Source: Brevibacillus humidisoli
GTDB taxonomy: Bacteria > Bacillota > Bacilli > Brevibacillales > Brevibacillaceae
Direction of reading: 5' to 3'
Length of the DNA: 64,000 bases
Assembly: GCF_020923435.1 (NCBI RefSeq)
Contig: NZ_CP087263.1
Coordinates: 1,445,970-1,509,969, forward strand
The notes below the pieces were generated by a model, which worked only from the letters and a program-made list of their open reading frames with translations, did not search any database and had not been told where the DNA came from. This document shows positions 11,638 through 17,683 of this stretch, one piece after another. Each line of letters begins with the position of its first letter. Position 1 is the stretch's first letter. The position numbers and the translations under genes were made by a program.

Positions 11638-11729
11638 CGCTTGGAAACAAAAAATATCTGGCCTCGCGTGACCTTTTTCGTCTGCCTCCCGTCAGACGGG
11701 GTAGAGAACAAGAGGTTGGAGGAAGTGTG

Positions 11730-12308
11730 ATGGCGATGCCGCTGGAAAAGGTGGGAGAGATAGCTTCTACACCGCCGGAACAATCAAAAGAATTGGAAAC
11801 GAGAGATTTCACGGAGTTATATGATGAATATTTTGATCGGGTCAACCGATATCTGCGCTGTCGGGTCTACAACCCTTGGGATGCAGACGATCTAACCACG
11901 ACGGTCTTTTTAAAGGCGTTGGAGAAGTTTGAACAGTACAGTCGGACCAGTCCGTTCGCCTCCTGGATTTTCCGTATTGCGCACAATACGTTTGTCGATT
12001 ACCTGCGGAAAAACAAGGAGCTCCCTGTGGACAACAGTCAGCTGCTGGTTGAAGAAGTGGACGAGACGTGGCAGCCTGAGCGGCAGGCTCTCAGCAACGA
12101 AGAGATCCATCTGCTGCAGGAAAGATTGGAGCTGCTGTCTCCGGATCAGCGTGACGTGCTGACACTTCGCTACTTTGCCGATTTGAAAATCAGTCAGGTG
12201 GCGGAAGTGCTCGGCAAGACAGAGTCCAGCGTGAAAATGCTCTCGCACCGCGGCTTGCAGCAGCTGCAAAAACTGTATAGGGAGGGAGACCGTCGTGAAA
12301 AAAGATGA
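11730..12308 (+). CDS. sigma-70 family (ECF-like) RNA polymerase sigma factor
   Basis: The protein has about 192 residues. Region 2 (about 25-90) carries YDEYFDRVNRYLRCRVYNPW, the DADDLTTTVFLKAL core-binding helix and SWIFRIAHNTFVDYLRK. Region 4 (about 125-185) carries LSPDQRDVLTLRYFADLKIS and the helix-turn-helix VAEVLGKTESSVKMLSHRGL. There is no region 1.1 or 3, as in ECF factors. GGAGGA lies 6 nt before the ATG at 11730; a longer frame from 11631 overlaps the terminator and is rejected. Its stop overlaps the next gene, a membrane protein, by 14 nt, the classic sigma/anti-sigma arrangement. Its regulon is unknown; it may drive its own operon. Confidence 0.88.
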   Translation: MAMPLEKVGEIASTPPEQSKELETRDFTELYDEYFDRVNRYLRCRVYNPWDADDLTTTVFLKALEKFEQYSRTSPFASWIFRIAHNTFVDYLRKNKELPVDNSQLLVEEVDETWQPERQALSNEEIHLLQERLELLSPDQRDVLTLRYFADLKISQVAEVLGKTESSVKMLSHRGLQQLQKLYREGDRREKR

Positions 12309-13356
12309 GCGCTTTGCAGCACAAGAGGAGGAATCGACGATAGAGCTGCTCTTGGCCCATTTAAAGGAGATGCGTCAGGCGGTCCCGATCAACTACCAGT
12401 TGAAGGCAGAGCTGAAGCAGAAACTGCAGGAACAGATCAAAAAGTTGGCGCAAAGCGAGTCTGAGCCATCCGGAATGCAGCTGCAGCAGGCGCGAAGAGG
12501 CTGGTGGTGGGGAGGTGCCTTCCTGATCGTGGTGGCGGCCATGGTCCTGTTGATTTGGCCGGATGACGAGATTCGTCTCGGCAGCGAGCAAACGCTGGCT
12601 GTCCCGGTACAACAGGAGGCAGAACGGACAGCACTCGCCCCATTTGATGAGCAGGTTGCCTATCTCGCCGATGACGAGAAGCTATACATTCATCAGTTTG
12701 TCAACGAGGTACCCCATGAGCGATCTTACCAGCTTCCAAAGACTGACGGCCGCTATGGATCGCTGTCTTGGGCAAGGTCATCCCGGCTTGCCGTTACCGA
12801 AGAGGGAGGAGAGCGTTCCCGACTATGGGTGATCGATGCGAGCGACAGCGGGGCGCAGGCCAAAAGTCAATTGGTCTGGGAGGAGCCCAATGGCGTTTTG
12901 AGCAGCCCCGACTGGTCGCCGGATGACCGTCGAATCGCGTTTACACGCACCCGCGGCACACAGAGCGAAATCTGGATAACAGATCTCCATACCTTAAAGA
13001 CAACGAAATGGACCGAAGGGCACAATCCGGTCTGGTCGCCTGACGGCACTCTGCTGGCTTATGTCAATCAGCAGAAGGTATGGGTGATGAGCCTTGTAGA
13101 TGAACGCACCTATCAACTCGGCGAGGGAGCCTATCCCTCTTGGGCCGATACAGACTGGTTGACATATACGACTCCTGACGGCCAGTTGGCTTCTGTCCAA
13201 ACTACGGAACAGCCCTTTACCGTCGAAATGATCCCATTTTCTCCCGAGAGAGAAGGTCAGTTGAAGCGGGCCAGTTGGTCAAGAGATGGCGATCACCTGC
13301 TGACAGCTGTAGAAACCAGTCAGGGCATGGTCTTTTCCATTGCCAAGCGAGACTAG
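12295..13356 (+). CDS. membrane-anchored beta-propeller protein, likely anti-sigma factor
   Basis: The product has 353 residues. A charged helical N-terminus in the cytoplasm (1-69) is followed by one membrane helix (about 70-88, WWWGGAFLIVVAAMVLLIW) and an outside domain made of TolB/PD40-type propeller repeats. The repeats show SPDWSPDDRRIAFTRTRG, NPVWSPDGTLLAYVNQQ and RASWSRDGDHLL. The GTG start overlaps the sigma gene by 14 nt and has GGGAG just upstream. By position and topology it is the natural anti-sigma factor: the N-terminal segment would hold the sigma factor and the propeller would sense an envelope signal. I see no canonical zinc anti-sigma motif, so this is inference. Confidence 0.65.
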   Translation: MKKDERFAAQEEESTIELLLAHLKEMRQAVPINYQLKAELKQKLQEQIKKLAQSESEPSGMQLQQARRGWWWGGAFLIVVAAMVLLIWPDDEIRLGSEQTLAVPVQQEAERTALAPFDEQVAYLADDEKLYIHQFVNEVPHERSYQLPKTDGRYGSLSWARSSRLAVTEEGGERSRLWVIDASDSGAQAKSQLVWEEPNGVLSSPDWSPDDRRIAFTRTRGTQSEIWITDLHTLKTTKWTEGHNPVWSPDGTLLAYVNQQKVWVMSLVDERTYQLGEGAYPSWADTDWLTYTTPDGQLASVQTTEQPFTVEMIPFSPEREGQLKRASWSRDGDHLLTAVETSQGMVFSIAKRD

Positions 13357-13374
13357 ATAAAGGAGAGAAATACG

Positions 13375-15627
13375 ATGTGGAAGTGGATTCTGGCGTTGGT
13401 TCTTGCTCTGTCAGGGATTGCAGCTCCACCTGCCGCTGCGGCAGACAGCATAGACATTTCGGTTCACGTACCGCTGAATGGACTCGTCAAATACGATCAA
13501 TGGACACGTCTCAACGTTACCTTAACGAATAATGGAGCGCCGTTTTCGGGGAGTGTGTCGATCTATCAGGATCGCTCACGATACAGGGAAGAAGACCGTG
13601 ATCTGGGAATCCGTCAGGAGGTTTCACTAACTCCAGGGGAAACCAAACAATATGATTTCGACCTCTCCGGAGAGATGTTTAATCAATCGCTGGTTGTGAA
13701 AGTGTTGGATGGGGAGATGGAGGTTGCCAGCTATCCGGTAGCTTCCGCTTCCCCCAAGGATGAGCGGGTTGTTGCTGTCGTCTCCGATGACCCCAATGCC
13801 TTTCACTTTTTGTTGATGAATAAAGACAAGTCAATGGCAACCAATCAGACATCCTTTTTGGTGCAGAATGTAGATCCAACAGCGATTCCGGATCAGTCCT
13901 GGGTTCTGAAGAATGTCGATATGCTGGCAATCGGTGGTTCCACCAGTACGATTGCTGAGGAGCAGATTGCGGCGATCAAGGAGTGGGTCCATCGCGGGGG
14001 AGTCTTGCTTCTCTCTGCAGGACCGGGACAGGATGAAACCGTACAGCCATTCTCCGACCTGCTCTCGGTCCCGGCTGGTTCGCCGGGAGAACTGCAGGAT
14101 CTGGGGGAGTTGCAGGAAGTGGCCGGGGACGATCCGCTGCCTATTACATCATTACCCGTCTACCACCAGGGTTCTCCGCTCATTGTGCCCAAGCAGTTGG
14201 GTGCGGGCTTGCTGTTGTTTGCCAATTACGATGTGACGGCAGAACCGTTGGCATCGTGGCAGCATAATCGCGAGTGGTGGCAGCATGTTCTGACCAAACA
14301 TGGCGCTATCGAGAGGATAAACCAACATAAAGGATTGTTTGATCATACCGGGAGCCAGTTGAGCCGAATCATCCCTGGTGTTCGCACACCGGATGCCGGC
14401 TGGCTGTTCTTCATTTGGTTTCTTTATATACTGGTCGTTGCACCGCTCGTGTATATCTGGTTGAAGCGGATCGACAGACGGGAGTGGGCATGGGGAATCA
14501 TACCCGGTTTGGCGATCCTGCTGTCGATCGGCATCTTTACCATTGGCCGTACCCTGGTCGTGGACGAAAACACCAGTTACACTGTCTCACGGATCGAGAT
14601 TATCGATGAAACGGCGGCTGAGGTTAGCTCCACTGGTACATTCCTGCAAATATCCGGTGGTACTTACACGGTCGAGGCGAAACCAAACTTTGTCGTCAAC
14701 CCCTACGGTAGATACGTAGATGAGAGAACGGATGTGAAAGCATCGATCTACCGCCAACAAGGGCAGAATACCCGGATTACGTTGGAGCAGGTCCCTTATC
14801 TGACGATTAGGCAGATTGCTGCAGCTGGTCTAAAGGAGGATGTTGGTGCATTCTCCACGGCCTTGACAGTAGAAGGGAAACGCCTCCTTGGTACGGTGAA
14901 AAACAACACTTCATTTGACATAGAGCAATTGTACGTCGATCTGGGCATGCAGCGGATTCCGCTTGGCCCTTTGGAAAAAGGGGAAGAGATGCGGGTAGAT
15001 AAACAGATAGAAGAGTACGTGATCGGTGAGATCGATGATAAGGCCTACTATCCCGAACCGCCGAGCAGAGAAGAGAGGATGGAGATGATCCGCCAAGATT
15101 TTCTCGATACGAATAGACGCGACAAGATTCGCCTGGTCGGAAGCTCATCCCAACCGCTGCAGCTCTTTACGATGCAGGGAGAACATGAGGCACATCATTA
15201 TAGTATGGTCAGCCAGGAAGTCCAACTCACTCCCAATCAGGACGGTCGGATTGTCTACCCCTACGGCACACTGCCTGTTCGTTTAGAGAATGAAGAAGGT
15301 AAGTTCTTCTCCCGGTCCTCATACGCCTACGAATTGGCGGATGGCAGCGCAACCTTTGCGCTGGCGGCAGGGGAAGCGGACATCGACGTAAAGCGGTTGG
15401 AAGTGCCGCTTGACCTCAATCCGTACCGCCCCTTTGTCAAAGAGATCTATCATGCGAAGAGCAATACCTGGAAGCCGCTTGGACGGGAAGAACGAGTTGT
15501 TCTGGAGGAACAGCTGCCGGAATACCTCAATCGAGACGGGAATCTGCTGATCCGCTTCCGCAATCCGACATCGCAGCCCCTAACGCTGCCGGAGCCCTTG
15601 TTCCAGGTGGAAGGGGAGGAGAGATAA
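13375..15627 (+). CDS. large exported two-pass membrane protein of the sigma/ABC operon
   Basis: The product has 750 residues. It has a signal peptide (about 1-23, ending PPAAAA), then a beta-sandwich region (about 25-120), then an alpha/beta region resembling a class-I glutamine-amidotransferase-like fold (about 125-300, with VDMLAIGGSTSTIAEEQIAAI and GGVLLLSAGPG). Two membrane helices follow (about 343-364 and 374-392), then a long beta-rich C-terminal region. The order resembles GldG-type and related accessory subunits of ABC-2 transporters. It begins 18 nt after the propeller gene and ends 3 nt before the ABC ATPase, so the products probably act as one complex. Catalytic residues for an amidotransferase are not evident. 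No named family is claimed. Confidence 0.65.
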   Translation: MWKWILALVLALSGIAAPPAAAADSIDISVHVPLNGLVKYDQWTRLNVTLTNNGAPFSGSVSIYQDRSRYREEDRDLGIRQEVSLTPGETKQYDFDLSGEMFNQSLVVKVLDGEMEVASYPVASASPKDERVVAVVSDDPNAFHFLLMNKDKSMATNQTSFLVQNVDPTAIPDQSWVLKNVDMLAIGGSTSTIAEEQIAAIKEWVHRGGVLLLSAGPGQDETVQPFSDLLSVPAGSPGELQDLGELQEVAGDDPLPITSLPVYHQGSPLIVPKQLGAGLLLFANYDVTAEPLASWQHNREWWQHVLTKHGAIERINQHKGLFDHTGSQLSRIIPGVRTPDAGWLFFIWFLYILVVAPLVYIWLKRIDRREWAWGIIPGLAILLSIGIFTIGRTLVVDENTSYTVSRIEIIDETAAEVSSTGTFLQISGGTYTVEAKPNFVVNPYGRYVDERTDVKASIYRQQGQNTRITLEQVPYLTIRQIAAAGLKEDVGAFSTALTVEGKRLLGTVKNNTSFDIEQLYVDLGMQRIPLGPLEKGEEMRVDKQIEEYVIGEIDDKAYYPEPPSREERMEMIRQDFLDTNRRDKIRLVGSSSQPLQLFTMQGEHEAHHYSMVSQEVQLTPNQDGRIVYPYGTLPVRLENEEGKFFSRSSYAYELADGSATFALAAGEADIDVKRLEVPLDLNPYRPFVKEIYHAKSNTWKPLGREERVVLEEQLPEYLNRDGNLLIRFRNPTSQPLTLPEPLFQVEGEER

Positions 15628-15630
15628 ACG

Positions 15631-16557
15631 ATGATTCAAACGGAACACTTAGGCAAACGTTACGGAAAACTAGAGGCATTGATTGACCTCAATCTGCAAA
15701 TCGAAAAAGGTCACGTGTTTGGTTTTATTGGTCCAAACGGAGCCGGAAAATCGACGACGATGATGATCCTCTCCACGCTGCTTGCGCCGACTTCGGGGAA
15801 AGCCTACGTGGCTGGCTACGATGTGGCAAAGGAGCCAAAGGCGGTGCGCCAATCGCTGGGGTACATGCCGGACTTCTTTGGCGTCTATGACAACCTGAAG
15901 GCGACCGAATACCTTGATTTTTATGCGGGAGCCTACGGCATTCCGACCGCCAAACGTACGTCGTTGATCGCAGATTTGCTGGAACTGGTCAATCTGTCCA
16001 ACAAGGCAGACGCCTACGTTGATTCACTGTCGCGCGGCATGAAGCAGCGGCTTGGCTTGGCCCGGTGTCTCGTTCACAGTCCGGAGGTACTGATCCTCGA
16101 TGAACCTGCTTCGGGACTTGATCCGCGGGCAAGGATTGAAATGCGGGAGATTTTGAAGCAGCTCCGTTCGATGGGCAAAACGATCCTGATCAGCTCACAC
16201 ATTCTGCCGGAGTTGGCCGAATTGTGCGATCAGATCGGTGTCATCGAGAAAGGGCGGCTGATTGCCTGCGGTGATGTAGATGAAGTAAGCGTAGGAACAC
16301 GCGGTATCTCCGTGATGCAGCTAAAAGTGCTTGACAGGCATAAACAGGCGGAGACGATATTGACAGAGTCGCCCTTTGTCAGGCGGTTGGACAACAAGAG
16401 CAGTCATTTCCGCTTTCACTTCACCGGTACAGAGGCGGATAAGGCTGAGCTGCTTCAGCGGCTGACTGCAGCGGGGATTCCTGTCGTTCACTTTGGCGAT
16501 TCAAAAGAAAACCTGGAAGATGTTTTCCTCGCGATTACGGAAGGGGTGGGCAACTGA
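15631..16557 (+). CDS. ABC transporter ATP-binding protein
   Basis: The product has 308 residues. Walker A is GPNGAGKST near residues 35-43, the signature is LSRGMKQRLGLARCL near 130, and Walker B is VLILDEPASGLDPRAR. The last 90 residues form the extra C-terminal domain seen in CcmA/NatA-type exporters of the ABC-2 class. It overlaps the next gene by 1 nt (TGATG), so ATPase and permease are translationally coupled. It powers the membrane part encoded next; the cargo is unknown. Confidence 0.9.
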   Translation: MIQTEHLGKRYGKLEALIDLNLQIEKGHVFGFIGPNGAGKSTTMMILSTLLAPTSGKAYVAGYDVAKEPKAVRQSLGYMPDFFGVYDNLKATEYLDFYAGAYGIPTAKRTSLIADLLELVNLSNKADAYVDSLSRGMKQRLGLARCLVHSPEVLILDEPASGLDPRARIEMREILKQLRSMGKTILISSHILPELAELCDQIGVIEKGRLIACGDVDEVSVGTRGISVMQLKVLDRHKQAETILTESPFVRRLDNKSSHFRFHFTGTEADKAELLQRLTAAGIPVVHFGDSKENLEDVFLAITEGVGN

Positions 16558-17408
16558 TGGGCGGCTTTTTTACCAATCCATTGATCGTCAAAGAGCTGCG
16601 GGAGCGATTTCGAGTCAAAAAAAGCATCTGGATTCTCGCTCTCTACCTGCTCATACTGGGTGCGATCCTGCTCGGTTTTGTCTACCTGGAACAGATGAAC
16701 TCGCTCTCAGCGCCAGGTGAAAATCGAGAGGCGTTTATCGTCATGGCCGTTATCCAGTATGGCATGATCTGCTTTATCGCTCCGGCTCTGTCGGCCGGCA
16801 CGGTAAGCGGAGAACGGGAGAGGCAGACGCTGAACATACTGTTGACGACTCAACTCTCTCCGCTGAAGATCGTGCTGAGCAAGCTCTTAACCTCGCTTGC
16901 CTTTATCTTTTTACTGGTGGTGGCCTCCATCCCCCTCTATAGCTTGATGTTTCTATACGGTGGGATTTCGCCTAGCCAGCTGCTTACACTGGTCGTCTTT
17001 TTTGCGGTCAATATCATTCTTTTTGGCTCTCTTGGCCTGTTTTGTTCTACCTGGGTGAAGCGTACCGGTGTGAGTACGATACTCGCTTATGGATTGGCTT
17101 TCTTTTTCGTTGTGGGCACGGGGCTGCTCGTCATGTTTCTCGGTCCACTGATCGCAGAAATGTCTGATTCGGTACAACCCGTAGATCCGATGGATTACGT
17201 CGGTATGCAGGTTCTTAGCTCTCTGAATCCTGTGATTATCATGTCCAATATTCTGGGAGAAGATTTTGGACCAAAACTGCGCTTGTTTATGGAACCATGG
17301 CAGTTTTTCGTCATTGTTTGCTGTCTGCTTAGCGCCCTGCTGGTAGCGTGGAGCGGATACCTGCTTCGCCCGATTCGTCGTTCCTGGTTTGGTTGGAGAA
17401 AATCGTAA
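16557..17408 (+). CDS. ABC-2 type permease
   Basis: The product has 283 residues with six membrane helices. The N-terminal cytoplasmic piece (NPLIVKELRERFRVKKS) and the amphipathic SAGTVSGERERQTLNILLTT stretch after helix 2 are typical of ABC-2 permeases of the GldF/NatB kind. It is coupled to the ATPase gene upstream. With the large exported protein it likely forms an exporter or an envelope-remodelling machine controlled by the sigma factor at the head of the operon. Confidence 0.85.
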   Translation: MGGFFTNPLIVKELRERFRVKKSIWILALYLLILGAILLGFVYLEQMNSLSAPGENREAFIVMAVIQYGMICFIAPALSAGTVSGERERQTLNILLTTQLSPLKIVLSKLLTSLAFIFLLVVASIPLYSLMFLYGGISPSQLLTLVVFFAVNIILFGSLGLFCSTWVKRTGVSTILAYGLAFFFVVGTGLLVMFLGPLIAEMSDSVQPVDPMDYVGMQVLSSLNPVIIMSNILGEDFGPKLRLFMEPWQFFVIVCCLLSALLVAWSGYLLRPIRRSWFGWRKS

Positions 17409-17455
17409 CAATTGTGTACAATAAGAGAATCGATCAAACAGAGGGGGTAGACATT

Positions 17456-17635
17456 GTGGAGAAACAGGACCGGCAAGAGGTGCAGGTCGTTGACTTTGAA
17501 GAGCTGCTCACGTATATCGAGCGGCGTCTGGCAAACGCGGGTATGAAGGTAGGACGCGACGAGATTATTACAATTTTACAGGCGGAAGAGGCTTTCCTGA
17601 TGGAAAAAGGGTTAATCGAAGTCGTCTCCGAGTGA
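17456..17635 (+). CDS. small acidic helical protein, 59 aa, unknown
   Basis: A GTG at 17456 is preceded by GAGGGGG, 7 nt upstream. An in-frame start at 17348 would lie inside the permease gene and has no site. The product is acidic with two likely helices (VDFEELLTYIERRLANAGM and GRDEIITILQAEEAFLMEKG), a layout seen in several small YozD-like Bacillales proteins. It is the last gene before a strong terminator, 47 nt after the permease, and may belong to the sigma/ABC operon. The function is unknown. Confidence 0.65.
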   Translation: MEKQDRQEVQVVDFEELLTYIERRLANAGMKVGRDEIITILQAEEAFLMEKGLIEVVSE

Positions 17636-17648
17636 TGATCCGAAACGG

Positions 17649-17683
17649 GAAACGGCATGCTGTCAACGGCATGCCGTTTCGTT
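17649..17683. terminator. terminator between convergent transcripts
   Basis: GAAACGGCATGC (17649-17660) and GCATGCCGTTTC (17669-17680) form a perfect 12-bp stem with an 8-nt loop. It sits between the end of the sigma/ABC operon and the convergent PNPOx-like gene. The T tail is short. Confidence 0.65.

Follow-up and report, generated by a model that had tools for sequence, protein, structure and literature searches.

We analysed a 64,000-nucleotide stretch of the chromosome of Brevibacillus humidisoli (contig NZ_CP087263.1; hereafter the window) and identified five adjoining genes that probably form an autoregulated circuit, in which an extracytoplasmic function (ECF) sigma factor and a membrane-bound anti-sigma factor control a single ATP-binding cassette (ABC) exporter. 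We put the probability of this reading at about two in three. The genes are SIG, encoding the sigma factor; PROP, a membrane protein with a propeller outside the cell; P3, a large exported membrane protein; and the genes of an ABC ATPase and an ABC-2 permease. Their order, its conservation across genomes, the domain make-up of their products, the conservation of a promoter before SIG and the near-uniqueness of the strict form of that promoter are directly seen.

In the mechanism that we propose, PROP would hold SIG at the membrane via a helix pair around its residues 15-46. When the propeller meets a signal, or P3 passes one on, SIG would be freed by a conformational or proteolytic step, bind RNA polymerase and read the GTGAC-N-CGTC promoter that precedes its gene. 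Expression of the whole operon would then rise, P3, the ATPase and the permease would export or extract a presumed substrate at the envelope, and the additional PROP made would reset the switch and close the loop.

A five-gene order kept across families

All five open reading frames (ORFs) were found where a sequence-only reading of the window had placed them. They occupy positions 11730-17408, run in one direction and overlap or are separated by gaps of at most 18 nt (Table 1), a head-to-tail arrangement that supports the earlier proposal of one operon. The further claim of one translational unit fits these five genes and fits a sixth, small gene downstream less well. Pfam matches over the cut-off were obtained for SIG (sigma-70 r2 and r4_2), PROP (PD40), the ATPase (ABC_tran) and the permease (ABC2_membrane); for P3, no Pfam family passed its cut-off. 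The host genome is a single contig of 4.9 Mb, and the named members of its family are nearly all Brevibacillus.

Table 1. Features of the operon and its 3' end, in positions of the window
Feature	Position	Strand	Remarks
ECF-type promoter, GTGACCTTTTT-N11-CGTC (-35/-10)	11668..11693	+	starts 62 nt 5' of the SIG ATG
SIG, ECF sigma factor	11730..12308	+	192 aa, sigma2 and sigma4 only; GGAGG 7 nt 5' of ATG
PROP, putative anti-sigma factor	12295..13356	+	353 aa; GTG start; 14-nt overlap with SIG
Conserved cytoplasmic segment of PROP, codons 15-46	12337..12432	+	LLxHLxxxRxAVPVNYxLKxxLxxxL; likely sigma-binding
P3, exported membrane protein	13375..15627	+	750 aa; 18-nt gap after PROP
ABC ATPase (DrrA/GldA-like)	15631..16557	+	308 aa; 3-nt gap after P3
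ABC-2 permease	16557..17408	+	283 aa; 1-nt overlap with ATPase (TGATG)
Possible sigma-A-like promoter of small gene, TGGAGA-N17-TACAAT	17394..17422	+	9/12 matches; overlaps permease 3' end
Small YozD-like gene	17456..17635	+	59 aa; 47 nt 3' of permease
10-bp perfect inverted repeat, possible terminator	17650..17679	+	no T run; read from sequence, not listed by the scan

The order SIG-PROP-P3-ATPase-permease is present in 25 of 26 loci of the host's own family, and the remaining locus (L070) stops at a contig edge. Of the 398 class genomes searched, 146 contain P3 relatives (second copies included) and 37 contain PROP; 33 of the latter belong to the own family, two to family f27 (including Ammoniphilus) and two to family f14. 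PROP lies directly upstream of P3, by coordinates, in all 37. Relatives of P3 were found in every one of the 39 genomes of the order search, three of which (G017, G018 and G019) carry only a distant copy (~25% identity). When 398 genomes of the phylum were searched, 59 contained P3 and 84 matched a wider PROP model. The match includes the N-terminal part in 15 of these, the criterion being a start no later than model position 17, and PROP adjoins P3 in 15 out of 15. The other 69 matches, partial propellers of ~41-70 bits whose neighbourhoods were not viewed, were taken as generic PD40 proteins. In the genomes searched, PROP and P3 thus do not lie apart; separation of the genes in most relatives was a possibility that the sequence-only reading had named as counting against itself.

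Excluding that of the window, the phylum loci number 14, comprising 11 complete operons, two cut by contig ends and one with broken ORFs. A scan of named genomes with the sigma factor alignment yielded 37 loci, including 27 complete operons (with P3 split in one), among them those of Desulforamulus putei and D. aeronauticus; the remaining ten consist of two with the same order and broken ORFs, one at a contig end and seven that lack PROP, among them L195, which stops just after SIG. Some loci were encountered twice under different labels (L070/L171, L255/L204 with broken ORFs, L246/L199, L132/L191 and L041/L175), L251 and L257 are cut short by contig edges, as is L070/L171, and L205 is a distant sigma factor (45 bits). 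The split P3 (L041:4181-6432) consists of two overlapping ORFs, perhaps through a frameshift or sequencing error, in a genome that bears the name Anoxybacillus sediminis PCH 117 but is placed in the Brevibacillus family.

P3, the ATPase and the permease often stand without SIG and PROP, as could be the case if the five genes were neighbours with no functional link. We consider this extremely improbable, since several families, both within the class and beyond it, share the order together with a conserved promoter; chance clustering was rejected on the same grounds.

The sigma factor, its promoter and its likely brake

SIG matches the Pfam sigma-70 r2 and r4_2 families (E-values 7.3e-14 and 2.1e-13) and scores 107.5 bits on TIGR02937 (cut-off 42.9), which bears out its initial description as an ECF-like sigma factor. 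It has the features of ECF (group IV) sigma factors, namely sigma2 and sigma4 regions within ~190 aa, and its PDB matches are ECF sigma factors, including SigW at 1.4e-14. Relatives of SIG are 62-84% identical to the window copy. The best PDB match is 6dxo, which we take to be BldN with RsbN, and the best NCBIfam model is that of the BldN family (134.7 bits). Both matches would suit a developmental (sporulation or BldN-like) circuit in place of an envelope-stress circuit, and Brevibacillus and Desulforamulus do form spores. We regard a developmental role as improbable: the BldN score lies under the cut-off of 206, the operon includes no developmental gene, and some exporters of the same family that lack SIG carry GAAACTTT-N-CGTC promoters, a kind used by envelope ECF sigma factors.

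In two species, B. invocatus (L193:7986-8831) and B. panacihumi (L194:7986-8800), SIG is directly followed by the small YozD-like gene, and PROP, P3, the ATPase and the permease are absent. The upstream neighbours are the same as in the window (peptidyl-prolyl isomerase-like and cystathionine-lyase-like genes, named by inspection), and the SIG promoter motif is retained at both loci. B. dissolubilis (L188:7989-8579), B. laterosporus (L192:7995-8582) and B. daliensis (L196:7872-8504) have the sigma factor in a second, closely related copy, which sits between a GNAT-like gene and DegV/gatC-like genes (also named by inspection) with no adjoining PROP.

The promoter before SIG is of ECF type at the sequence level, with a -35 element ending in AC and a CGT-type -10 element. 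Of 38 loci scanned with an initial, stricter pattern, 19 had a site upstream of SIG (shuffle mean 0.05). A wider pattern, G[TA]NAC-N15-17-CGT[AC], which was relaxed after inspection of the same sequences and compared with 1000 shuffles per locus group, is present in 22 of 24 Brevibacillus-family operons, in the one Ammoniphilus operon (1/1), in six of seven Desulfotomaculum-type loci and in all three loci with SIG in which no PROP was seen (L195, which ends 77 nt after SIG, is among them); the shuffle means across the groups ranged from 0.03 to 0.47. Loci that were fetched later gave 10 out of 13 (shuffle mean 0.17), or 9 out of 11 without the repeats L246 and L255. The misses among the 13 are L252, in which the ORF start is probably over-extended, and L255 and L257, which are broken or cut; at L249 the motif lies 30 nt inside a mechanically called ORF with a start that is probably over-extended as well. 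As a control, the wider pattern was found before 10 of 434 other ORFs, these being mechanically tiled frames of at least 100 aa and not annotated genes. The strict pattern occurs once per genome in G000 (the host), G001, G002 and G030, and is always the SIG promoter. We infer that the promoter is read by SIG itself, and its conservation lends support to the earlier proposal that the sigma factor would raise expression of the exporter.

PROP has the layout of a membrane anti-sigma factor: its gene directly follows that of the sigma factor, and its product has a cytoplasmic N-terminus, one membrane helix and a sensor outside the cell, a topology read from the sequence by inspection. An AlphaFold model (mean pLDDT 83.9, with low block means of 34-76 in the N-terminal part) shows helices at residues 12-29, 31-53 and 66-87 and a propeller at 95-353. 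The helix at 66-87 is hydrophobic and was taken as membrane-spanning, and the nearest solved folds to the propeller are TolB propellers (Foldseek 4.6e-10). Mean pairwise identity within the own family is 65% for residues 15-46, 36% for the propeller and 27% for the membrane helix; the phylum-wide values are 54%, 24% and 21%, respectively. That a short cytoplasmic stretch is the most conserved part of PROP agrees with binding to a partner that is as well conserved as SIG, and it strengthens the original suggestion that the propeller protein is the likely anti-sigma factor. Gene place, topology and conservation together point to PROP as a putative anti-sigma factor that would bind SIG by residues around 15-46, and this N-terminal segment would be a new anti-sigma domain.

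The exporter, its relatives and the 3' end

In the AlphaFold model of P3 (pLDDT 85.1), an Ig-like domain (residues 24-125) is followed by a GIFT/amidotransferase-like alpha/beta domain (131-335), a pair of adjacent long helices (341-365 and 369-395) and, from residue 400 to 750, beta domains. Foldseek matches of the whole protein to large beta proteins and clathrin-adaptor domains were set aside for their low TM. Residues 130-316, compared using VIA-align, resemble Salmonella STM3548 (Z 13.5), IFT52 (5fms; Z 11.2, rmsd 3.7, 169 aligned), a ThuA-like protein (Z 10.7) and an OST chain (6s7t_G; Z 9.7), although a Z of ~10 is also reached by other Rossmann-like entries. GldG presumably belongs to the same GIFT-type fold group as this alpha/beta domain. 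The likeness to GldG that had been noted at first sight therefore holds for the fold (an IFT52/OST/ThuA-type domain) and not for the sequence, which scores 17.8 bits on ABC_transp_aux, under the Pfam cut-off of 34.7. A contig scan with P3 as the sole query returned nothing. The ATPase, permease and P3 would together form an exporter, outward transport being the presumed direction.

This architecture raises the possibility that the propeller reads the exporter itself, by docking on the Ig/GIFT ectodomain of P3 and freeing the sigma factor when the exporter is loaded, stalled or scarce, so that the loop would gauge transport need. Consistent with this, PROP always adjoins P3 in the genomes searched, the sigma factor has no other strict target in the host genome, and the ectodomains of PROP and P3 are both outside the cell and diverge more than the sigma factor and ATPase do. 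A shared operon would look alike without any contact between PROP and P3, however, and we put this idea forward tentatively.

The P3-ATPase-permease set also precedes a coiled-coil gene, MoxR and DUF58, without SIG or PROP. In Brevibacillus-family genomes, the set in this context is a second copy (L042-L051); the context is seen in other families as well, and some sets have neither SIG/PROP nor MoxR/DUF58 neighbours. The presence of P3 in 146 class genomes, as against PROP in 37, suggests that the control pair is a later addition to the exporter. An unrooted tree of the ATPases, built by a quick method with SH-aLRT support only, has 75 rows, namely the window and 74 of the 77 loci. The window ATPase falls within a group of 15 SIG-linked rows that has full support. 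On this tree the SIG label changes twice, and the starred branches force at least one change; two are needed because the pair of loci from family f14 groups with MoxR-linked rows. These two loci (L139 and L140), from the third family of the class, have the five-gene order, a divergent PROP N-terminus and an ATPase among the MoxR-linked copies. It seems that the control pair joined an older exporter at least once, on a tree that, being unrooted, cannot separate gain from loss, and the coupling of sigma factor and exporter in f14 was perhaps a separate event.

Upstream of P3 operons that lack SIG, an ECF-type motif was found in 10 of 52 cases compared with 8 of 279 other ORFs at these loci, mechanically tiled as in the control above (p 6.6e-5), and the strict form G[AT]AACTTT-N-CGTC in 7 of 52 compared with 0 of 279 (p 1.7e-6); these tests followed sight of the pattern in part of the set (7/26), and loci of the same family within it are not independent. 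The GAAACTTT-N-CGTC promoters mentioned above precede the P3 genes of L134, L138, L141, L146, L150 and L161. This suggests that exporters of the P3 family may often be controlled in trans by ECF sigma factors, and that the window unit carries its own sigma factor instead.

At 22 of 25 family loci, the small gene follows that of the permease. It adjoins SIG in B. invocatus and B. panacihumi, where the four intervening genes are gone, an arrangement which indicates that it is not tied to the exporter. Four of its 12 members match PF14162 (best 1.6e-4), with no match for the window copy. At the position of its possible promoter, TGTACAAT boxes were observed in 11 of 22 family loci. The scan that listed the promoter in the window gave six matches in total, near the shuffle mean of 4.8. 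The small gene may form a separate transcript with its own promoter, or may belong to the operon, as the sequence-only reading had suggested.

Points of doubt, known systems and meaning

Several observations weigh against the autoregulated circuit, in addition to the widening of the promoter pattern after inspection. The N-terminal profile of PROP matched no PDB chain (best E 1.6), and a Pfam search with the N-termini of 10 PROP members, at E up to 10, listed 12 families (best single-member E 0.0011) with no anti-sigma family among them; an NCBIfam anti-sigma match is weak and under the cut-off in 14 of 23 members. The promoter motif is absent before SIG at L173 and L175 and before the second sigma copy in all of its loci (0/3). 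The strict pattern would miss weaker targets; it is absent from G034, and G037 has one additional site. With the pattern reversed as a control, 0-5 sites were found in each genome (one in the host genome for the other strict form), so that the number of strict sites is close to chance expectation and it is their location that matters. Given the f14 loci, the coupling of sigma factor and exporter may have arisen more than once. Finally, the presence of SIG without PROP in B. invocatus and B. panacihumi implies that SIG is tolerated without PROP, and lives unbraked or is held otherwise. The absence of PROP applies to the whole genome of B. panacihumi W25 (G019), and to the locus only in B. invocatus. 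This is a natural loss that leaves SIG without its likely brake.

These two loci, and the lack of a known Pfam anti-sigma domain in the N-terminus, would also be compatible with PROP being an outside part of the exporter, such as a substrate receptor or docking protein, with control of the sigma factor left to its own transcription or to a different protein. We consider this unlikely, since most class genomes with P3 exporters have no PROP, and PROP accompanies SIG, overlaps its gene and is conserved on its cytoplasmic side. A brake on SIG remains our preferred role for PROP.

Among known systems, the SigY operon of Bacillus subtilis (SigY-YxlC-D-E-F-G; relatives at L221-L225) likewise begins with an ECF sigma factor followed by small membrane proteins, and at L224 an ABC ATPase and an ABC-2 permease come next, as in the window operon; the ATPase there matches that of the operon at 160 bits, but the permease at 16.5 bits. 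The SigY operon, whose further genes are named YxlC-G, is autoregulated, with YxlC and YxlE as negative regulators. The window operon, by contrast, has no YxlC/D/E-like genes, and PROP and P3 alone stand between the sigma factor and the transporter. No significant PROP or P3 match was found in L221-L225, where the YxlC-like ORFs gave E-values of 0.014-0.97 with the PROP model. Membership of the SigY family was rejected for SIG (78.6 bits, cut-off 194), and the SigY model found nothing in the host genome at E up to 1e-40. By analogy, the window unit may work like the SigY operon as outlined here, yet it falls outside that family by these tests.

With GldA-GldF-GldG of Bacteroidota, the unit shares an ABC ATPase, an ABC-2 permease and an extracytoplasmic membrane partner with a GIFT-type domain. 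Membership was rejected on the scores for GldA (236.2 of 402.6 bits) and GldF (34.9 of 288.5), and we know of no sigma factor or propeller that is part of Gld. The MoxR/DUF58-linked operons have homologous P3 (~25% identical), ATPase (61-65%) and permease genes in the same order, and differ in that the coiled-coil gene, MoxR and DUF58 follow and that SIG and PROP are missing. TolB of the Tol-Pal system provides the nearest solved propeller fold and the best NCBIfam name for PROP, but its family was rejected (44.2 bits, cut-off 343.15); unlike TolB, PROP is membrane-anchored with a cytoplasmic helix pair, and no Tol-Pal gene is among the five. ECF57 sigma factors are described as carrying WD40-like C-terminal extensions (PMC8999054). 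The propeller repeats of ECF57 lie within the sigma factor itself, whereas here they belong to a separate membrane protein and lie outside the cell. A search of titles and abstract beginnings in the open-licence literature found no description of this gene set.

In conclusion, we raise as a tentative generalization, which we think could hold but do not expect to in its full extent, that closed exporter circuits exist across Bacillota: an anti-sigma factor with a VPVNY helix pair, borne on a propeller, would gauge a GIFT-type ABC-2 exporter, a sigma factor with a single promoter would tune that exporter alone, and related exporters would be controlled in trans by other ECF sigma factors. Work on ECF sigma factors mostly asks which regulon is driven, and the strict promoter of SIG is single in the genome of B. 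humidisoli, so that a single 5.7-kb unit may allow the signal, brake, switch and output to be studied together. The SIG promoter is a possible reporter in the search for an inducer and offers a handle on a widespread exporter family. If the circuit operates as proposed, a propeller-bearing anti-sigma factor with a conserved, unrecognised cytoplasmic domain would represent both a new sensor and a new type of brake for ECF sigma factors.

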